Assembly: GCA_903851305.1 (NCBI GenBank)
Contig: CAINNX010000184.1
Span: 1 to 58,806, forward strand
Length of the DNA stretch: 58,806 nucleotides
DNA from: an uncultured Hyphomicrobiales bacterium
GTDB lineage: Bacteria > Pseudomonadota > Alphaproteobacteria > Rhizobiales > Beijerinckiaceae
Direction of reading: 5' to 3'
The position numbers and the translations under genes are program-made. The notes under the pieces were generated by a model. That model saw only the letters and a program-made list of their open reading frames with translations, made no database searches and was not told the DNA's origin. How positions within the stretch are numbered: the stretch's first letter is position 1; each line of letters starts with the position of its first letter. Of this stretch, positions 3,083-41,706 are shown piece by piece.

Positions 3083-4039
3083 TCAGGCCGCCAGCAACAA
3101 TCCGATCCCCAGCAGCAGGACAGCCACAGCTGCCACCAGCTCAAGCCCGCACAAGAGCTTCAGCGCAGCGCTGGAGCGCAGAGTGGCAAAGCGACTGGCT
3201 TGTGTCTTGGCATAGACCGCCAGCGCGGCAATGGCACAAGTGGTGATCGCCGTGCCCGCGGCCATGGCGAGCGTGGCAGCAATACCCACCAGAACAATCC
3301 CCTGTGCTCCAGCAAAGACCAGAACAAGTATCGCACCCGAACAAGGGCGAAGGCCCGCGGCAATCACCGTTCCTGCCGCATCACGCCAATTAAATGCGCC
3401 ATCAAGCTTGGCGGGATCGGGCATATGCACATGCCCGCAATCTGGCCCATGCACATGGGCGGCATCATCACCGCCATCACAAACAAAACGCGAGGCGATC
3501 TGCGGCTGGCTTTGCATCACGCCGACAAATGCCTTGCCTTTGCGCCACACAAGGGCTGCACCCACCAGAGCAATCGCGGCATAGGAGGCGAGCTCCACCC
3601 ATTGCGCGGCATCACGCAAATGACGCGCGGTTACGCCAAGTAAAGTGGTCAGCCCCACTACCAATGCAATCGCCACAAGCGCCTGCAAGAGAGCCGCAAG
3701 CGCCGCCATCACCAGACCGCGCTTGAGCGCACGCTCATTGGCAACAAGATAAGCTGCCAGCACCGCCTTGCCATGTCCAGGGCCCGCCGCATGAAAGACG
3801 CCATAGGCAAAGGCCAGCCCGACCAGACTCCAGAACGCGGAAGCATCCGTGCGGATGGCGCGCACAGCCTCGCGCATCAACAGATCGAAATGCTGTTGCT
3901 GCGCTAAAATCCAACCGACAAGCCCAGACGCCGAACCGCCACCTTCAGAAATGCCGACAGAGAAAGGATTGCGCGCCTGCGCGAAAGCATCGGGCGCCAA
4001 CAGCGCCAGACAGAGAAGAACAAAGACGATGCGCCTCAC
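3083..4039 (-). CDS. NicO/RcnA-type nickel/cobalt exporter
   Basis: A 318-residue polytopic membrane protein with a cleavable-looking leader (MRRIVFVLLCLALLAPDAFA). GPGHGKAVLAAYLVAN at about residues 87-102 is the histidine motif of the NicO (HupE/UreH/RcnA) superfamily. A cytosolic or periplasmic loop rich in histidine (AHVHGPDCGHVHMPD) follows at around residue 195, as in RcnA-like exporters. A second conserved segment, GLRPCSGAILVLVFA, is also present. It overlaps the DUF1007 gene upstream by 4 bases, a very common pairing in proteobacteria. It probably exports Ni2+ or Co2+. No RcnR-type regulator is adjacent. Confidence 0.87.
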   Translation of the reverse strand: MRRIVFVLLCLALLAPDAFAQARNPFSVGISEGGGSASGLVGWILAQQQHFDLLMREAVRAIRTDASAFWSLVGLAFAYGVFHAAGPGHGKAVLAAYLVANERALKRGLVMAALAALLQALVAIALVVGLTTLLGVTARHLRDAAQWVELASYAAIALVGAALVWRKGKAFVGVMQSQPQIASRFVCDGGDDAAHVHGPDCGHVHMPDPAKLDGAFNWRDAAGTVIAAGLRPCSGAILVLVFAGAQGIVLVGIAATLAMAAGTAITTCAIAALAVYAKTQASRFATLRSSAALKLLCGLELVAAVAVLLLGIGLLLAA

Positions 4040-4674
4040 GGACAGGCCACAGTCGCACGGCTGGCGAGCTTGATGCCGAAATCGGCACCCGGAGACAGCC
4101 CGGAGAAAAAGGCCTCATTCAAACGATTGGCTTCGCTCTCGCCCAAAGGCGCGGGTTGCGTCACCGAGACCGAACAACCAGACGGTGCACCCTTCATCGT
4201 CACGCCATTTTTAGCAAAATCAAACGACACGAAATAGGTCGGATCATAGACTTGCAACGTGAAAGCCTTGTCGGCTTTCACCGGCTGCTTCAGAGGCAGG
4301 ATGAACGTCAGCGTGACGAGTTTCTTGTCGTCTTCGCGCATGACAATGGCTTGTGGTTTGGCAAATTCGATCTTTTGGCCAGGCACTTTCACAATGGTGA
4401 AATAGCCATATTCGGCAAGGTCGGAGACATTCTGCTCAGCCAAGGGCTGCAATTGCTCAGCACTGACCGGCTTGCCCTCCTCACTTGCACCTGTGGTGAC
4501 GAAAGCGGAATACATCTCGTCAAAGATCCAAGATTGACTGACGCCGGTAACACGCCCCTGTGCATCGAAGATGACTTCACTGGTGACCACCACAAAGACA
4601 TGCGGATGTGCCAACGCGGGGCCGGCACAGGCCATCGCAAGGATTACAAAAGCGGCGTGAATGATTCTCTTCAT
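4036..4674 (-). CDS. DUF1007 periplasmic protein, partner of the NicO transporter
   Basis: A 212-residue secreted protein with a signal peptide ending near ALA at residue 22, followed at once by HPHVFVVV. This His-Pro-His start of the mature chain is characteristic of DUF1007 (COG3683) and is likely to bind metal at the new N-terminus. The gene sits directly upstream of the NicO exporter with a 4-base overlap, so the two are co-translated. The family is thought to act as the extracytoplasmic component of the Ni/Co transporter. That role is inferred from gene pairing. Confidence 0.85.
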   Translation of the reverse strand: MKRIIHAAFVILAMACAGPALAHPHVFVVVTSEVIFDAQGRVTGVSQSWIFDEMYSAFVTTGASEEGKPVSAEQLQPLAEQNVSDLAEYGYFTIVKVPGQKIEFAKPQAIVMREDDKKLVTLTFILPLKQPVKADKAFTLQVYDPTYFVSFDFAKNGVTMKGAPSGCSVSVTQPAPLGESEANRLNEAFFSGLSPGADFGIKLASRATVACP

Positions 4675-4725
4675 GACGGGATCATCACTCGCCGCAAACT
4701 TTGGCGCAAGAATGGCAGCGGCTTT

Positions 4726-4751
4726 CCCTTCTCCCGCTTGCGGGAGAGGGG
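4726..4751. repeat. Short GC palindrome in intergenic space
   Basis: A near-perfect inverted repeat, arms CCCTTCTCCCGC and GCGGGAGAGGGG around TT, between the DUF1007 and homospermidine synthase genes. Following bases are not T-rich on either strand, so it looks more like a dispersed palindrome than a classic terminator, though it could end the homospermidine operon transcript. A similar element is at 21252-21275. Confidence 0.6.
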
Positions 4752-4764
4752 AAGATGCAGCTGC

Positions 4765-6198
4765 TTAGCGCACGATCACATTCTTGAACTGCCACGGATC
4801 GCTGGTGTCCAGATCTTCAGGAAACAGCACGCTGCGATCATCGAGCGGGGTCCAGCTGGTATATTCGCCGATCACTGGCCCGAGATAGGGACGCTGCACG
4901 TCGAGGCAGCGGCGGAAGTCGATCTCGTCGGCTTCCACAATGCCGGCATTGGGGTTTTCCAATGCCCAGACCATGCCAGCCAGCACCGCACTCGTCACCT
5001 GAAGGCCGGTGGCATTCTGATAGGGCGCAATGCGGCGTGTCTCTTCAATCGACAGCTGCGAGCCATACCAATAAGCGTTCTTTTTGTGGCCATAGAGCAG
5101 CACGCCAAGCTCATCGATGCCATCGACAATTTCCGTCTCGTCGAGAATCTTCGATTCCTTCTGCTGCTTCCAGCCAGAACCTGCCATTTCATGCAGCGAG
5201 AGAACCGCATCATTGGCCGGGTGATAGGCGTAGTGACAGGTCGGACGATAGGCCGCCTTGCCGCCTTCATAGACGGTCAGATAATCGGCAATCGAAATCG
5301 ATTCATTGTGTGTCACCAGAAACGCATGCTGCGCACGCGCGGTCGGCGTCCATGAGCGCACTTTGGTGCCCGCACCCGGGCGCATCAGATAGATGGCGGC
5401 ATTGGAGCCGAAATCATGCTCGCGACCCTCAGGCGGCAGCGCCTTTTCATGCGTGCCCCAGCCGAGTTCCGCAGGCTGCAAACCTTCCGACACAAAACCT
5501 TCGACCGACCAGGTGTTGACGAAAACACCCATGGGCTTGGGATCGCGCGCGCGCTGCGTGTCGCGCTCGGCGATGTGAATACCCTTCACGCCGGCCTTTT
5601 GCGCCAGACGCGCCCATTCCTCGCGGTTGCGCGGCTCTGGCATATCAACGCCGCAATCAGCCGCCACATTGAGCAGCGCCTGCTTCACAAACCACGACAC
5701 CATGCCAGGGTTGGCACCACAGCACGACACAGCGGTTGGGCCGCCTGTTGGCAAATCATCGCGCAGATCAAGCACGACTTCGCGCAAAGCATAATTGGAA
5801 CGCTGCGACGCGGAGAGCGATGTGTCGGTGTAAAAACCCTTCCAAGGCTCGGCCACTGTGTCGATGTAGAGCGCGCCAATCTCGTGGCACAGCTTCATAA
5901 TGGCGGTCGAGGACACCTCCACCGACAGATTGACAACAAAGGCCTGACCCTTGCCTTCCGTCAGCAAGGGCTTCAGCAGCTCGATGTAATTGTCTTCGCG
6001 CACGCTGTCTTTGATAAAGCGGATGCGGCGCTCGTCACACAGACCACGACCCGCATCATCCGGATCGATCACGGTGAAGCGCTTCTTGTCGAATTTGAAA
6101 TGGCGCTCGATGAGCGGCAGCGTGCCGCGACCAATCGAGCCAAAGCCGATCATGACGATGGGACCAGTAATCGTGCCATGCACGGGCCATTGCGACAT
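4765..6198 (-). CDS. hss: Homospermidine synthase
   Basis: A 477-residue protein beginning MSQWPVHGTITGPIVMIGFG. It has the N-terminal NAD-binding glycine motif (GFGSIGRGT, residues 18-26) and the length of bacterial homospermidine synthase. The enzyme joins two putrescine molecules, or putrescine and spermidine, through NAD-dependent oxidation to give sym-homospermidine, the main polyamine of many rhizobia. Conserved family stretches include GANPGMVSWFVKQAL and TCHYAYHPANDAV. It is the last gene of an operon with an acetyltransferase and an ornithine decarboxylase, which supplies the putrescine. The start is an ATG with GGAG about 14 bases upstream. Confidence 0.95.
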   Translation of the reverse strand: MSQWPVHGTITGPIVMIGFGSIGRGTLPLIERHFKFDKKRFTVIDPDDAGRGLCDERRIRFIKDSVREDNYIELLKPLLTEGKGQAFVVNLSVEVSSTAIMKLCHEIGALYIDTVAEPWKGFYTDTSLSASQRSNYALREVVLDLRDDLPTGGPTAVSCCGANPGMVSWFVKQALLNVAADCGVDMPEPRNREEWARLAQKAGVKGIHIAERDTQRARDPKPMGVFVNTWSVEGFVSEGLQPAELGWGTHEKALPPEGREHDFGSNAAIYLMRPGAGTKVRSWTPTARAQHAFLVTHNESISIADYLTVYEGGKAAYRPTCHYAYHPANDAVLSLHEMAGSGWKQQKESKILDETEIVDGIDELGVLLYGHKKNAYWYGSQLSIEETRRIAPYQNATGLQVTSAVLAGMVWALENPNAGIVEADEIDFRRCLDVQRPYLGPVIGEYTSWTPLDDRSVLFPEDLDTSDPWQFKNVIVR

Positions 6199-6288: not shown

Positions 6289-6879
6289 TCAAGCGGCCTG
6301 CGAGAAAACCTCCGCAACCGGCTTACGTACAATTGCGCGCGCCGGAGCACCGGTCGCTCGCACAAGACCCTTTGCGCCACTCAAAGCGCCGGGGACCAGT
6401 TCCAATCCCAGAAAACGCTCAACCTCAACGGGGCCAGGCATTGCCAGACCCCGTACGGATGCGCGCTCGAACCCAAGCGGATTGTAATAAGCGGCATCGC
6501 CAACAAGGATGACACCCTGATGACCACGCTGCACGGATCGGAAGAGACCCTCAGCGATCAGTTTCCGACCAATGCCAAGCGAGCGGAACCGCGAGTCCAC
6601 AGCCACTGGCCCGAGGAGGAGAGCCGCACGATCGCCAGCCTGGAGGTGCCAAAAGCGAATCGTGCCAACCAACTCCTCCCCGAGCACGGCGACCAGCGCG
6701 AGGCCAGCTGCAGGCGCACGTCCTTCGCGCAACCTTTCGCAGGTCTTGGTAAAGCGCGCGGGGCCGAAAGCCGCATCAAGCAAACGCTCACGCGCGGCAA
6801 CATCAAAACCGGCTTCATCACGGATCGCGAGCTGCGACTGAGCAACTTGCTGAAAATCTTGCATGCAGACATAGGTCAT
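6289..6879 (-). CDS. GNAT-family N-acetyltransferase
   Basis: A 196-residue protein with the GNAT acetyl-CoA-binding core: ALLLGPVAVDSRFRSLGIGR at about residues 85-104 (the R/Q-x-x-G-x-G/A type motif) and then GHQGVILVGDAAYYNPLGFE. The last segment, with D-x-x-Y-Y, is typical of the YhbS-like subfamily. It lies between ornithine decarboxylase and homospermidine synthase on the same strand, an arrangement I associate with alphaproteobacteria. It may acetylate a polyamine or an intermediate, but that is inference from position only. Confidence 0.85.
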   Translation of the reverse strand: MTYVCMQDFQQVAQSQLAIRDEAGFDVAARERLLDAAFGPARFTKTCERLREGRAPAAGLALVAVLGEELVGTIRFWHLQAGDRAALLLGPVAVDSRFRSLGIGRKLIAEGLFRSVQRGHQGVILVGDAAYYNPLGFERASVRGLAMPGPVEVERFLGLELVPGALSGAKGLVRATGAPARAIVRKPVAEVFSQAA

Positions 6880-6971
6880 CGCGGCCTCCTCAAAGGCTCA
6901 GGCGCGACCCTCGCACCAGATACACACTCGCGCGTGCACCGGCCGTCCGGGACTCTTCAAAGTGGATGAAA

Positions 6972-6993
6972 GACGCCGCGCGCACGCGGCGTC
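6972..6993 (-). terminator. Hairpin after ornithine decarboxylase
   Basis: Nine-base-pair GC stem (GACGCCGCG/CGCGGCGTC) with a 4-base loop, directly after the decarboxylase stop codon on the minus strand. It is followed by only TTTC, so it may be a weak terminator or a processing site within the operon. Confidence 0.5.
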
Positions 6994-7000
6994 GAAAGGC

Positions 7001-8143
7001 TCAGATCACGTAGGATTTGAGCGGCGGGAAGCCGTTGAACTCGACCGCTGAATAGGTGGTCGTGTAAGCGCCGGTTCCCTCGATCAGCACTTTCGCGCCA
7101 ATCTCGAGGCTGACAGGAAGGAGATAGGGCTCCTTCTCATACAACACGTCGACCGAGTCACAGGTTGGACCTGCAAGCACGCAAGGCTCCAGCTCGTCAC
7201 CATCATAGGCGGTGCGGATCGGATAACGGATCATTTCATCCATGGTTTCGGCCAGACCATTGAACTTGCCGATGTCGAGATAGACCCATTTCACCGTGTC
7301 ATCGTCTGCCTTCTTGGAGATCAGAACGACTTCGGCTTCGATCACGCCGGCATTGCCAACCATGCCGCGACCCGGCTCGATGATGGTTTCAGGAATGGCA
7401 TTGCCGAAATGCTTGCGCAGCGACTTGAAGATCGACTGTCCATAGGCTTTCACCGCTGGCACGTCCTTGAGATATTTGGTCGGGAAACCACCGCCGAGAT
7501 TGACCATCGACAGGTGAATGCCACGCTCTGCAAGATCGCGGAAAATATCAGCCGATGACTTCAGAGCTGCGTCCCACATGCGCGGGTTGCGCTGCTGCGA
7601 GCCGACATGGAAGGACAGACCATAAGCAACAAGGCCGAGACGATGGGCGTGTTCGAGCACGCGGCCAGCCATCTCAGGCACGCAACCGAATTTGCGCGAC
7701 AGGGGCCATTCAGCGCCTTCACCATCACAGAGGATGCGGCAGAACACGCGCGAACCAGGAGCGGCACGCGCAATCTTCTCGACTTCGGCTTCGCAATCAA
7801 CTGCGAAGAGGCGAATGCCGAGCTCGTAAGCGCGCGCAATATCGCGTTCTTTCTTGATCGTATTACCGAAAGACACACGGTCTGGCGAAGCGCCAGCGGC
7901 CAGAGCCTGCTGGATTTCAACCACAGAGGCCGTGTCGAAGCACGAGCCGAGAGCTGCCAAGAGCTTCAGCACATCGGGAGAAGGGTTGGCCTTGACGGCG
8001 TAAAAGACGCGTGTGTCCGGCAATGCCTTGGCGAAGGCATTGTAATTGTCGCGCACGACGTTGAGGTCGAGGACCATGCACGGTCCATCATCCTGTCCCT
8101 TTTCGCGTCGGTCGCGCAGGAAATCCATAATACGGTCGGTCAT
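7001..8143 (-). CDS. Ornithine/lysine decarboxylase, alanine-racemase-fold type
   Basis: A 380-residue PLP enzyme of group IV decarboxylases. FYAVKANPSPDVL near residue 50 contains the lysine that binds PLP. GLSFHVGSQQRNP and NLGGGFPTKY contact the cofactor phosphate. CDSVDVLYEKEPYLLP near the C-terminus holds the catalytic cysteine and aspartate. It makes putrescine from ornithine, possibly also cadaverine from lysine. The ATG at 8143 is preferred over an upstream in-frame GTG-type extension to 8257, because it is preceded by GAAGGGA 8 bases before it and homologues begin just before MDFL. First gene of the operon leading to homospermidine. Its Shine-Dalgarno lies inside a palindrome (see the leader entry). 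Confidence 0.93.
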   Translation of the reverse strand: MTDRIMDFLRDRREKGQDDGPCMVLDLNVVRDNYNAFAKALPDTRVFYAVKANPSPDVLKLLAALGSCFDTASVVEIQQALAAGASPDRVSFGNTIKKERDIARAYELGIRLFAVDCEAEVEKIARAAPGSRVFCRILCDGEGAEWPLSRKFGCVPEMAGRVLEHAHRLGLVAYGLSFHVGSQQRNPRMWDAALKSSADIFRDLAERGIHLSMVNLGGGFPTKYLKDVPAVKAYGQSIFKSLRKHFGNAIPETIIEPGRGMVGNAGVIEAEVVLISKKADDDTVKWVYLDIGKFNGLAETMDEMIRYPIRTAYDGDELEPCVLAGPTCDSVDVLYEKEPYLLPVSLEIGAKVLIEGTGAYTTTYSAVEFNGFPPLKSYVI

Positions 8144-8640
8144 CGCGGCATCCCTTCGAAGGGCGCGCAACTGTTGGCGCGCCGATACGAGTTGACTTCG
8201 TGGATGGCAACGACCCTCCCCGCGCGTTGGAGACGCGGAAGCGGAATCGGCAACCATCCGTGACCTGTGCCGCCTGACTGAACCATTTCAGCCAGACAAA
8301 CACTGGTCGGGTGCTGCGCCGTAGGACACGTCCACCCCAGAGCAGCATGATGCTGTCCAAGGGATCAGTGGCCATCGATTGGATGGGATGAGCTCCCGTC
8401 CGCACGTGCGGCAAGAAAGACAAGCCTCTTCGGTACGCCAGCCTTTGGAGGGCTGACAGAGACGAAAAAGCCCGGTCCGTCGTTGCTTTAAGTCGCGTCC
8501 CCCGTTTGGCGGGGTTCGCCGGTTCGCTCCGGCTGCCGGTTTTTTACTGACGAGTGACCGGCCTCTTGTCCGGATCCCCGCCAACCGACACACGACCACA
8601 GGCACGTGCGATTTGGGCAAGGCGGAAAATATGTATTTTT
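8144..8640 (-). promoter_or_regulatory. Long structured 5' leader of the polyamine operon (speF-leader candidate)
   Basis: About 640 bases separate the decarboxylase from the divergent opgG gene and hold no convincing gene. On the minus strand the part near the decarboxylase is rich in strong hairpins: GCCGG/CCGGC (about 8519-8535), CCCCG/CGGGG, CAGCA/TGCTG (about 8344-8356), and GGCGCGC/GCGCGCC (8162-8183). The last partly overlaps a second palindrome, CCCTTCGAAGGG (8152-8163), which contains the Shine-Dalgarno, so the two folds compete. A known RNA family, the alphaproteobacterial speF leader, sits upstream of ornithine decarboxylase genes in this group. I infer membership from position and structure, not from an alignment. 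A possible upstream reading frame starts at 8375 (MATDPLDSIMLLWGG) and overlaps the decarboxylase start out of frame. Confidence 0.5.
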
Positions 8641-34626: not shown

Positions 34627-34932
34627 TTAAAAGCGACAATAGCCAGATCCCGCATGGGATGACCCTGATGGACACGAGCCATTGTGGGCGGGGATGTAAC
34701 GCTGCCCACCACTCGCGCGACAATATCCGCTGCCTGCATGCGAAGTGCCCGAGGGACAAGAATTGTTGATAGCTGGAATATAAGTATCCGACGATGTGGT
34801 GCGGCAATAACCGCTCCCCGCGTGAGACGTGCCAGAGGGGCATGAGTTATTGATGGCAGGCACCATGCCTTGGGCTTGAGCAACGCTCACCAAAGCCATC
34901 CATGCACACAGTGAAACGGGAAGAACCTTCAT
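34627..34932 (-). CDS. Secreted cysteine-rich three-repeat peptide
   Basis: A 101-residue exported protein. After a signal peptide ending AQA it consists of three near-identical units built on NNSCPSGTSHAGSGYCR, each with two cysteines 12 residues apart, joined by short linkers such as TTSSDTYIPAI. The ATG at 34932 is chosen because GGGAG lies 7 bases upstream; two in-frame ATGs lie before it. I do not know its function. Regular cysteine spacing suggests one disulfide or metal site per unit in the periplasm. Confidence 0.75.
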   Translation of the reverse strand: MKVLPVSLCAWMALVSVAQAQGMVPAINNSCPSGTSHAGSGYCRTTSSDTYIPAINNSCPSGTSHAGSGYCRASGGQRYIPAHNGSCPSGSSHAGSGYCRF

Positions 34933-34944
34933 TTTCATCTCCCA

Positions 34945-34981
34945 TAAAAAAAACGCCCCGAACCCAGAGGGTCCGAGGCGC
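34945..34981 (-). terminator. Terminator of the FAH-family gene
   Basis: Imperfect hairpin (GCGCCTCGGACCC / GGGTTCGGGGCG) followed on the minus strand by eight T residues, about 25 bases after the stop at 35006. Confidence 0.85.
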
Positions 34982-35005
34982 TGCAAAATGTTACCCCGCC
35001 AAGCT

Positions 35006-36957: not shown

Positions 36958-36989
36958 GCCCCGTGAGCTTTTCACTCACGGGGCGTTTT
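36958..36989. terminator. Bidirectional intrinsic terminator
   Basis: Hairpin GCCCCGTGAG/CTCACGGGGC with a 7-base loop. TTTT follows on the plus strand and TTTTT on the minus strand. It separates the dehydrogenase from the convergent guanidine operon. Confidence 0.93.
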
Positions 36990-37043: not shown

Positions 37044-37508
37044 TCACACCGATATTTTTTTTGATTGCTCCAGGTTAAGAAGCCGGAGATTTTGGCCGTC
37101 AAAATAGACAAACTTGAGTGATTTTCGCCGTGAATTCAGCCGCCCCGGCAGCGGATCATAATGATAGCCGCCGCCAATCGTGGGAGCGAGCACGCCCACA
37201 TCCGTCCGATCATCAATTTCGACGCGGAGCAATTGTAGCGTTGCTCCATCAGGTGCGCGGCCGCAGAACGGGATACCTGCGAGACGCAGAAAACTCACAG
37301 GATCGGCGACCGCAGGAAATGTTTCGACAAAACTTGTCTCGACGAGATCAAGATCGGTCTCCGTTGCTGCTGGCGTCGGTGACGCAGTGCCCCCTGCCAG
37401 ATGAGGTGTCTGCCATTGGGCAGCGCCCTGGCCACCATTGTGCCCCATATGGACATGGGCACCGGGTGCGCCGCCGTCATCGTGATGGTGATCATGTCCG
37501 CGATGCAT
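37044..37508 (-). CDS. Histidine-rich protein at the end of the guanidine operon
   Basis: A 154-residue protein that I do not recognise. The first 24 residues (MHRGHDHHHDDGG, then HVHMGHNGG) hold eight histidines, which looks like a nickel or other metal store. A low-complexity linker to about residue 50 is followed by a folded-looking domain (FLRLAGIPFCGRAPDGATLQ, LPGRLNSRRKSLKFVYFDGQ). Its ATG, with GAGAGGA before it, is 15 bases after the guanidine hydrolase stop, so it is the fifth gene of the riboswitch-controlled operon. A role in giving nickel to GdmH is an inference; HypA/HypB-like accessory genes, known from other guanidine hydrolase loci, are absent here. Confidence 0.75.
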   Translation of the reverse strand: MHRGHDHHHDDGGAPGAHVHMGHNGGQGAAQWQTPHLAGGTASPTPAATETDLDLVETSFVETFPAVADPVSFLRLAGIPFCGRAPDGATLQLLRVEIDDRTDVGVLAPTIGGGYHYDPLPGRLNSRRKSLKFVYFDGQNLRLLNLEQSKKISV

Positions 37509-38751: not shown

Positions 38752-39525
38752 CTATTGAAACAGCGACGCATCAGGGCGCGGCTGGGGTTTATGGGCCGAT
38801 ATGATCGGATCATTCATCGGAATGTCGTAAGTGATGGTTGCACCATAGCGCTCGGGCGCATGCGGATCGCGCCGCGGACGATCAAAGGTGATCACGCGTG
38901 TTCCAAGCTCAAAGGCCTCGCGAATGTCATGCGTCACCATGACTATTGTCATGGCATTTGTTTTCCAGAGATGGCGCACCAGCTCGTGCATCTGGCTTTT
39001 GGTACCCGGATCAAGCGCTCCGAATGGCTCATCCAGCAAAAGGATTTTCGGATTTTTGGCCAAAGCTTGCGCAATGGCGAGGCGTTGCTGCATGCCCCCC
39101 GACAAGGCGCGGGGGAATTTGTCAGCATGTTCTGACAAGCCAACTTGGGCGAGTAGTGCGCGGCATTGCTCAAGCGCCTCTTCGCGGGCCAAGCCACGCA
39201 GCACACCCGAAAAAGAGGCTGCTGCGAGCTCGAAACCGATCAGCACATTTTCAATGACAGTCAGATGCGGGAATACAGAATAGCGTTGAAACACCACACC
39301 ACGATCAGGCCCGGGCTCACGCGGGATAGGTTTGCCATCGAGCAAAATATCGCCGCGTGTGGGCTGCTCTTGTCCCAAAATCATCCGCAAAAACGTCGTC
39401 TTGCCGCAACCTGACGGACCCACCAGCGAGACAAAACTTCCGGCCGGCAAGTGCAGATTGATCCGCTCCAGCACGATCTGCGCGCCATATTCTTTCCAGA
39501 CATTGCGAATGAGAAGCTCGCTCAT
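38752..39525 (-). CDS. ABC importer ATPase, predicted for guanidine
   Basis: A 257-residue ATPase. Walker A is GPSGCGKTT, the signature is [15 protein letters not shown] and Walker B is ILLLDEPFGALD. It belongs to the NitT/TauT group. It overlaps the permease gene by 4 bases upstream and lies 16 bases from gdmH downstream. Similar importer genes accompany guanidine hydrolase in cyanobacteria (the sll1077-sll1082 region of Synechocystis). The guanidine assignment rests on that context and the riboswitch. Confidence 0.9.
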   Translation of the reverse strand: MSELLIRNVWKEYGAQIVLERINLHLPAGSFVSLVGPSGCGKTTFLRMILGQEQPTRGDILLDGKPIPREPGPDRGVVFQRYSVFPHLTVIENVLIGFELAAASFSGVLRGLAREEALEQCRALLAQVGLSEHADKFPRALSGGMQQRLAIAQALAKNPKILLLDEPFGALDPGTKSQMHELVRHLWKTNAMTIVMVTHDIREAFELGTRVITFDRPRRDPHAPERYGATITYDIPMNDPIISAHKPQPRPDASLFQ

Positions 39526-40346
39526 GTCGAGGGCTCCTCATCATGCGCCCATGGATAAAGTTTGCGCGACAGAGCGCCAAGCAACAGATCGCTGATGAAG
39601 GCAATGAGCGTGATCCAGATCACGTAAGGAATGATCACATCCATGGCGAGATAACGGCGCACGAGAAAGATACGATAACCAAGGCCGGATTCTGCAGCAA
39701 TCGCTTCGGCGGAGATGAGAAAGAGCCAGGCCGGGCCCAAGGATAGCCGTGTCGACTGGATGAGCTTTGGCAAGGTCTGGGGCAGCGCGACACGCACAAT
39801 ATACTGCCATGTCGAGGCGCCTAATGTTTGCGCCTTGATGAATTGCTCAACCGGAATGGATTGCACATGATGGGTCAGATCGCGCATCAGAAAAGGTGCT
39901 AGCCCAATCACGATCAAAGCAATTTTTGAGACTTCGCCAAGCCCAAAGATGATGAAGAGAATGGGCAGGAGCGCCATCGGCGGTACAACGGACACAATAG
40001 AAATGAGCGGCGCAAAGCCTGCGCGGATCAACGGGATTACACCAAGCAAGAGCCCAACCGCGAGAGCCGCACACACGGATATCGCAAGACCTTGGAAGAG
40101 ACGGATCAGACTGGCGCCTGTGTCTTTCCACAAAAGCACATCACCTGTGCGCGCATCCGCCGTGAAAGCATAGCGCACAATGGCATCACCCATCGAGGCG
40201 AGTGAGGGCATGAGTTTGTCGGCGGGGTTCAGCAACAAACGCTCATGCGACATCATCACATAGAGGAGGATCACGAGGCCGATGGGCGCGAGGCCAAGCA
40301 CCAGCTTTGTGACGCGGTCAGGGTTTACATTCATGATGCGCCGCAT
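39522..40346 (-). CDS. ABC importer permease, predicted for guanidine
   Basis: A 274-residue inner-membrane protein with six hydrophobic segments. QFIKAQTLGASTWQYIVRVA is the EAA-type coupling loop. It overlaps the ATPase start by 4 bases and lies 29 bases after the binding-protein gene. The start at 40346 follows CGAGG; a second ATG four codons later is possible. It is the second gene of the guanidine operon. Confidence 0.9.
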   Translation of the reverse strand: MRRIMNVNPDRVTKLVLGLAPIGLVILLYVMMSHERLLLNPADKLMPSLASMGDAIVRYAFTADARTGDVLLWKDTGASLIRLFQGLAISVCAALAVGLLLGVIPLIRAGFAPLISIVSVVPPMALLPILFIIFGLGEVSKIALIVIGLAPFLMRDLTHHVQSIPVEQFIKAQTLGASTWQYIVRVALPQTLPKLIQSTRLSLGPAWLFLISAEAIAAESGLGYRIFLVRRYLAMDVIIPYVIWITLIAFISDLLLGALSRKLYPWAHDEEPST

Positions 40347-40375: not shown

Positions 40376-41449
40376 TTAGAGCTTGCCGGCCGCAGCCATT
40401 TCCATGAAGCTTGAGTCAAACCGCAACTTCACGTTTTTGGCATTGCCCAAGGTCTTCCCTCCTGGGAAAGCAATGCCAATCACATCGACGGATTTGGCGC
40501 CTTCACCCAACAGCCCATGCGCGAAGGAGAACTTGCGCACATTGTCCATGGTGGTGACCAGCCCCGCACTTTTGGTGAATTCCACAGCCTCTTTGGCATC
40601 ATAGAACATGCGCGTGGTCTTGAGCTGGTCATCAAAACCGGCGAGGTCCGTTCCAGAAGCTTTGGCCATGGATTCGCGTGCTGTCACGCCTTCCTTGTCC
40701 TTTGCCATAATCGCAATGGTTTCATACCAAATACCGGTTAGCGCTTTGGCAAAATCAGGATTGTCCTTGAGCACATCGCCACGCACGATGGTCGTGTCGA
40801 TGATTTCGCCTGGAATCTTGCTCGAGTCGAAGACCAAATTGGCGCCCTTGAGGGCCTTGGCTTCGCTCAACTGCGGGTTCCAGGTGACGACCGCTTTTGA
40901 ATCAGCCGAGCTGAAGGCAGCCACAATATCCGCATCAGACGTATTGACCGTCTTCACATCCTTTTCCTTCAGACCAACGGTCGAAAGTGCGCGCGCCAGA
41001 AGGTAATGCGAGACGGACATTTCAACGAGATTGACCTTGCGCCCCTTGATGTCCGAGAGCTTGGAGGTGCCCTTCAGCACAATGCCGTCATTGCCGTTCG
41101 AAAAGTCGCCAACGATGACGACACTTGTGTCGACACCACCAGCGGCAGGAATGGTCAGCGCATCCATATTGGCAGCGGTCACCGCATCTACTTTGCCGGC
41201 GGTGAATTGATTGATGGATTCGACATAATCATTGACCTGAACGACATCGATTTTAATGCCATATTTATCGGCCCATTTTTTGACGATGCTGGCTTCAGCC
41301 GCATAGGGCCAAGGCATCCACCCGACATAGACCGTCCAAGCAAGAGTGAATTTTTTTTTGGCTTGCGCCAGCGATGGCGACACGGTGGCGCTGAAAGACG
41401 CGACCACAAGCGCCGAAAGTGTGAAAAGTTTAACGAGCACAGTTCGCAT
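40376..41449 (-). CDS. Substrate-binding protein of the guanidine importer
   Basis: A 357-residue exported protein: leader LFTLSALVVASFSATVSPSL ends near LAQA, then FTLAWTVYVGWMPWPYAAEA. QFTAGKVDAVTAANMDALTI is the NitT/TauT ligand-site segment. GVDTSVVIVGDFSNGNDGIV follows, with acidic and aromatic residues suited to a cation. It is the first gene behind the guanidine-I riboswitch. Its GGAGGTGG ribosome site and ATG can pair with upstream sequence (see the expression-platform entry). Confidence 0.9.
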   Translation of the reverse strand: MRTVLVKLFTLSALVVASFSATVSPSLAQAKKKFTLAWTVYVGWMPWPYAAEASIVKKWADKYGIKIDVVQVNDYVESINQFTAGKVDAVTAANMDALTIPAAGGVDTSVVIVGDFSNGNDGIVLKGTSKLSDIKGRKVNLVEMSVSHYLLARALSTVGLKEKDVKTVNTSDADIVAAFSSADSKAVVTWNPQLSEAKALKGANLVFDSSKIPGEIIDTTIVRGDVLKDNPDFAKALTGIWYETIAIMAKDKEGVTARESMAKASGTDLAGFDDQLKTTRMFYDAKEAVEFTKSAGLVTTMDNVRKFSFAHGLLGEGAKSVDVIGIAFPGGKTLGNAKNVKLRFDSSFMEMAAAGKL

Positions 41450-41523: not shown

Positions 41524-41620
41524 CCGGAGCCTCCCGGGTTTTTATCCCTCCGTGAACCCGATTAGGTCGGGCTGTCCCTCTCGGACCAGACGCTACAAAG
41601 CCGGAACCCTAGGGACACAC
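41524..41620 (-). ncRNA. Guanidine-I (ykkC) riboswitch aptamer
   Basis: Read on the minus strand, the conserved segments appear in order and in the right spacing: CCTAGGGTTCCGG at the 5' end, CTGGTCCGAGAGGGACAG in the middle, then ACGGAGGGATAAAAACCCGG and GAGGCTCCGG. These are the invariant parts of the guanidine-I aptamer, recognised from memory of the family. It lies 75 bases before the importer operon that includes guanidine hydrolase, exactly the gene class this riboswitch controls. The promoter should lie between 41621 and about 41700. Confidence 0.95.
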
Positions 41621-41706
41621 AAGACTACTCATGGGGCCGTAAAATTCGGAAGATTCAACTTCAGGCTTTGTGCACTTATTGGCCGCAGGCTGATTAATAA
41701 AAAAGC

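Follow-up and report, generated by a model that had tools for sequence, protein, structure and literature searches.

A histidine-rich protein family encoded beside guanidine hydrolase in Alphaproteobacteria: a candidate nickel accessory protein

The window, meaning the whole stretch of 58,806 nucleotides that was analysed, carries an operon on its reverse strand, in the order guanidine-I riboswitch, substrate-binding protein, permease, ATPase, arginase-family enzyme and a histidine-rich ORF (Table 1). The preliminary description had placed this ORF at the end of the operon and noted eight histidines within 24 residues; the gene, with 154 codons, proved to be genuine. It starts 15 nt past the gdmH stop codon, and an AGAGG sequence can be read upstream of its ATG. 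Eight histidines among the first 24 residues correspond to P ~ 2e-8 (a single-look value for an assumed histidine background of 2.1%). Compared with the homologous loci L031, L032 and L033, the gene showed dN/dS values of 0.05, 0.10 and 0.11, against 0.007 (partial gene), 0.013 and 0.036 for gdmH in the same three loci. These values indicate that the histidine-rich gene is under selection as a protein, changing faster than GdmH, yet constrained. Inspection of the protein by eye gave no signal peptide, membrane segment or P-loop motif. Terminator-like sites numbered 7 in the scan, and shuffled sequence gave 4.9 on average.

Two other features were noted elsewhere in the window. The ORF at 34627-34986 (-) encodes a small protein that is probably secreted and has three nearly identical repeats with Cys (YIPAINNSCPSGTSHAGSGYCR), and at 8323-8618 (-) an Rfam speF leader directly adjoins the alphaproteobacterial sRNA ar45.

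Table 1. Features of the guanidine operon and of its last gene product, in window coordinates
Feature	Position	Strand	Basis
Guanidine-I riboswitch	41529..41623	(-)	84.5 bits vs gathering score 63
ABC substrate-binding protein, presumably for guanidine	40376..41449	(-)	TIGR03427, 552.7 bits
ABC transporter permease	39522..40346	(-)	ORF and family models
ABC transporter ATPase	38752..39525	(-)	ORF and family models
gdmH, predicted guanidine hydrolase, 403 aa	37524..38735	(-)	metal ligands and specificity Thr, His, Trp
Histidine-rich protein gene, 154 aa, last of operon	37044..37508	(-)	ORF, dN/dS 0.05-0.11, homologues
N-terminal His-rich arm, residues 1-24, 8 His; length varies across family	37437..37508	(-)	sequence
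His23-Asn24 motif	37437..37442	(-)	His in 53/53, Asn in 52/53 sequences
His36	37401..37403	(-)	51/53 sequences; QWQTPH in subfamily 1, HLHSH in subfamily 2
C-terminal domain, residues 50-154 and stop	37044..37361	(-)	alpha/beta in low-confidence model; 7 invariant residues
Terminator-like hairpin, then T-rich stretch, past end of histidine-rich gene	36958..36984	(-)	pattern match only

The best PDB matches of the enzyme encoded directly upstream were 7esr/7oi1 and 9fek, which are the Synechocystis GdmH and the N. inopinata enzyme, respectively (PMC11410670). Among ureohydrolases, specificity for guanidine has been tied to a combination of Thr, His and Trp (PMC11410670). The enzyme of the window has H237, W328 and the six metal ligands together with T120 of a GTTYR motif, T120 and T121 being adjacent and the exact counterpart of Thr97 not fixed. 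By every test made, the neighbour is a guanidine hydrolase as judged from its sequence. GdmH is described as nickel-dependent (PMC10094980, PMC11271267, PMC12930504).

The preliminary description had called the histidine-rich protein unrecognised, and this holds for the family as a whole, which has no name: Pfam and NCBIfam searches with 34 members brought up nothing credible, the best being chance-level matches of single members (E 0.03 to 0.1). The window protein itself had 0 matches in the family libraries, a sequence search for solved relatives of the family profile returned none (best PDB E 0.97), and no prior description of the protein was found in the open-licence literature. Alignment of 53 members separated an arm averaging 36% histidine from a remainder with 2.5%. 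Between 5 and 25 histidines are found per member in the part reaching just past His36; a few members are poor in arm histidine, with 5 to 7 in the trimmed arm. Cysteine is near absent, with 6 residues in total over the 53 trimmed sequences. Seven positions are invariant in all 53 members (F60, F64, D69, L74, L93, P109 and P121). The family divides into two subfamilies, marked by QWQTPH and HLHSH, and this split has support 1.0 in the trees of the partner protein and of GdmH alike. An AlphaFold2 model of the protein, made with 4 sequences in the alignment, reached a mean pLDDT of 53.5 (61.4 for the trimmed domain), and Foldseek with such low-confidence models gave no match at E <= 0.001. In view of these poor models and the lack of a Foldseek match no fold is claimed, and a docking role of the C-terminal domain is suggested by its conservation alone. 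We regard the protein as the representative of a new family whose probable functional role is a known one.

The co-occurrence with gdmH that had been proposed as a check was determined, and homologues in genomes lacking gdmH were not found in the samples searched. In the sample of the own order, gdmH (E <= 1e-100, up to 6 candidates scored per genome) was present in 32 of 295 genomes and the histidine-rich gene in 31, all 31 with gdmH; the profile search behind the latter count (up to 12 candidates per genome) used a profile built from own-order matches and is therefore not independent. A single-sequence search found the gene in 30 of 297 genomes of the order. An independent count comes from a second alphaproteobacterial order (that of genome G506), presumably Rhodobacterales judging from its resemblance to named plasmids, where both genes were present in the same 16 of 148 genomes (gdmH at E <= 1e-90, up to 24 candidates per genome). 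In a phylum-wide sample (same gdmH threshold, up to 10 candidates) both occurred in the same 5 of 329 genomes, G543 being the only one new with respect to the other samples. Fisher P values for these co-occurrences ignore relatedness. Among 72,556 plasmid records the gene was found in 7 by either of two queries, and in all 7 gdmH adjoins it on the same strand. No match to the protein was obtained in phages and viral contigs.

The arrangement itself is equally constant, the histidine-rich gene lying just downstream of gdmH on the same strand in 53/53 loci. A guanidine-I riboswitch was detected in each of 10 further loci scanned, and ABC genes were located near gdmH in 47 or 48 of 54 loci (missing in 6 or 7, several of these at contig ends). 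Clustering of gene neighbours returned chiefly the five operon genes; many of the other clusters were overlapping frames and were given no weight. A minimal operon was found in genome G077 (L169, G077:C2, 6793-8855 (-)), consisting of guanidine-I riboswitch, gdmH and histidine-rich gene, with no ABC genes in the ~5 kb visible upstream. The histidine-rich gene thus tracks the enzyme and not the importer. The two proteins also share their history. Trees were compared over 50 taxa, leaving out three loci with truncated gdmH (L163, L167, L177). The partner tree has 18 splits with support >= 0.9, of which the GdmH tree reproduces 14. Of 47 splits the two trees have 22 in common; 200 label shuffles yielded at most 1 shared split. 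Distances, too, correlate between the C-terminal part and GdmH (r 0.86, a value reached in 0 of 2000 permutations). On these sequence comparisons, a partnership of the histidine-rich protein with GdmH in Alphaproteobacteria is well supported.

Only one own-order genome, G140, carries a gdmH-like gene (~55-57% identity) without the partner. In its product a Ser replaces the specificity Trp, no guanidine-I riboswitch scored above threshold in the 10 kb stretch, and a HupE/UreJ gene (PF04955, E 2.5e-51) lies directly downstream. This GdmH paralogue (L064, G140:C17:20000-30000, 3584-5508 (-)) carries histidine-rich sequence both in an N-terminal extension and in an internal loop. The Ser for Trp exchange, the missing riboswitch, the protein's own His-rich N-terminus and the HupE/UreJ gene indicate that it is probably no guanidine hydrolase; it apparently has a nickel arrangement of its own and is perhaps a nickel ureohydrolase for another substrate. 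A decaying locus was observed in G031 (L163, G031:C15, 6467-7981 (+)), where gdmH lacks its first 109 residues and the histidine-rich gene is intact; neither ABC genes nor a guanidine-I riboswitch were found there, and the genome had no urease match. Outside the Alphaproteobacteria, three of four actinobacterial plasmid loci have the specificity Trp, and none of the four has the partner within 6 kb. The comammox guanidinase has no chaperones nearby, and its chaperone-free production in E. coli gave an active enzyme with one Ni and one Mn (PMC11410670). GdmH-type enzymes without the partner in these groups imply that it is no general requirement of GdmH.

In Synechocystis, GhaA and GhaB are the nickel-delivery proteins of GdmH (PMC10094980, PMC12930504, PMC11271267), and metformin hydrolase, a relative, is reported to depend on co-expressed HypA/HypB (PMC11399263), although its MetAB chaperones, needed for growth, are described as not essential in vitro (PMC11271267). 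The absence of HypA/HypB-like genes asserted in the preliminary description applies to the own assembly, where HypA had no match and the HypB model gave a single match, below the cut-off, to the UreG of the urease cluster. HypA exceeded its cut-off in 11 of 49 gdmH genomes (7/34 and 4/15), never beside gdmH, and one more genome had a sub-threshold match; the nearest HypA sharing a contig with gdmH lies ~45 kb off (G600). The HypB model matched at E <= 0.001 in 33 of 34 genomes, above the cut-off in 6 and in none of these beside gdmH; the weak matches are taken as UreG-like, a reading checked in the own genome only. Most gdmH genomes examined are therefore without the known HypA/HypB pair, and the slot beside gdmH holds the histidine-rich protein. 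Urease was clearly present in 47 of the 49. The own genome has a full urease accessory set including UreG and a His-tailed UreE, the latter (L183, G000:C171:57000-69000, 6574-7110 (+)) with a Cys pair in its long His-rich C-terminal tail.

Identity of the histidine-rich protein with any of these chaperones was rejected. The HypA domain (PF01155) was found in 0 of 34 members, and hhalign against the G077 HypA gave a probability of 0.15%. For HypB/GhaB, the same 34 members showed no match to a G3E GTPase (TIGR00073, PF02492) in Pfam or NCBIfam. Neither UreE_N nor UreE_C was detected, and profile and BLASTP comparisons with UreE gave chance alignments of 1 column and 16 residues, whereas the own genome's UreE does match the UreE models.

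Likenesses of another kind exist. Like the histidine-rich gene, ghaA and ghaB of Synechocystis lie in a guanidine operon with GdmH and an ABC importer (PMC10094980), and they share its presumed job; they encode two proteins, HypB being a GTPase, whereas the histidine-rich protein is single and matches neither HypA nor HypB models. UreE resembles it in joining a globular part to a His-rich tail, but carries the tail at the opposite end. CooJ of Rhodospirillum rubrum, likened here by description, is small, binds nickel, has a His-rich region and is encoded together with a single nickel enzyme in one operon (PMC6006190); its histidine cluster is C-terminal and the enzyme it serves is CO dehydrogenase, whereas the arm described here is N-terminal. 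Two features of operon-encoded His-rich nickel accessory proteins are found in the family, a His-rich segment (36% histidine over 53 members) and a position beside the enzyme (53/53 loci).

The best explanation, to which we assign a probability of roughly 0.6, is that the histidine-rich protein is a nickel accessory protein dedicated to GdmH, acting in place of GhaA/GhaB. Guanidine would open the riboswitch, so that importer, GdmH and histidine-rich protein are produced at the same time. Ni(II) would be gathered by the flexible His-rich arm with its near-invariant His23-Asn24 and His36, and the conserved C-terminal domain may dock on GdmH. By raising the local nickel supply, the arm would let the dinuclear site of newly made GdmH take nickel and not manganese. 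In Alphaproteobacteria the protein would thereby hold the place of the cyanobacterial GhaA/GhaB, relatives of HypA/HypB. A nickel mechanism is likely, and within it we infer nickel as the metal, the docking on GdmH and the delivery. Several points count against it: arms rich in histidine bind Zn, Cu and Co as well; the His-tailed UreE of the own genome could supply nickel; no HypA/UreE-like fold was recognised by profile comparison or Foldseek; 11 of 49 genomes do carry HypA; a few members have an arm poor in histidine; and there are the GdmH-type enzymes that occur without the partner and the MetAB chaperones described as dispensable in vitro. A wider form of this explanation, in which a single small protein that lacks any nucleotide-binding domain stands in for the two-protein, GTPase-driven HypA/HypB system in loading a dinuclear nickel ureohydrolase throughout Alphaproteobacteria, as a new, NTP-free route to mature nickel enzymes, is put forward tentatively and is itself rather doubtful.

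The strict one-to-one linkage and co-inheritance with gdmH suit a lasting subunit as well as a chaperone. The protein could thus be a stabiliser or regulator of the GdmH hexamer, with the arm as a local metal buffer and no delivery; its conserved part is the C-terminal domain, and metformin hydrolase does require a second subunit (PMC11399263). That second subunit is a ureohydrolase itself, however, which the histidine-rich protein is not; the Synechocystis and N. inopinata enzymes are described as homohexamers (PMC11410670), and a subunit role needs no His-rich arm, so that we consider this unlikely. Still less probable is a metal store or detoxifier of the Hpn type that protects the cell as nickel demand rises and does not act on GdmH. 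The arm is very rich in histidine and variable, and Helicobacter is known to have nickel-binding proteins of this His-rich kind, but a general store would be expected with other nickel enzymes too, whereas the profile matches occurred solely with gdmH despite urease in 47 of 49 genomes; storage also leaves the conserved C-terminal domain unexplained. As GdmH makes urea, service to urease, or a sharing of nickel between the two enzymes, might be considered from that same frequency of urease and from the UreE and UreG of the own genome. It appears very improbable, since the gene stands beside gdmH in every locus examined and the own-genome urease has a full accessory set; G031 retains the gene without a urease match, a weak case because of the truncated gdmH there. 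A role in the importer (for example by binding the transporter) or in binding guanidine itself, suggested by the ABC genes near most loci, can be practically dismissed given the G077 operon, which retains gdmH and the histidine-rich gene under the riboswitch without ABC genes, and the lack of an apparent signal peptide or membrane segment.

As a candidate nickel accessory protein, the family bears on a gap in what is known of these enzymes: the comammox paper calls the mechanism of nickel loading unclear, as no chaperones were found (PMC11410670). The family provides a testable candidate for the nickel supply of GdmH in a whole bacterial class, including Sinorhizobium fredii NGR234, a strain that can be worked with in the laboratory. 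If the proposed function is correct, nickel-enzyme maturation, for which the use of NTP is described as the common point (PMC6006190), would gain a route that needs none, and it would aid the production of active GdmH in other hosts. It would also explain how guanidine, a residue of fertilisers and drugs, is turned into usable nitrogen in those bacteria.
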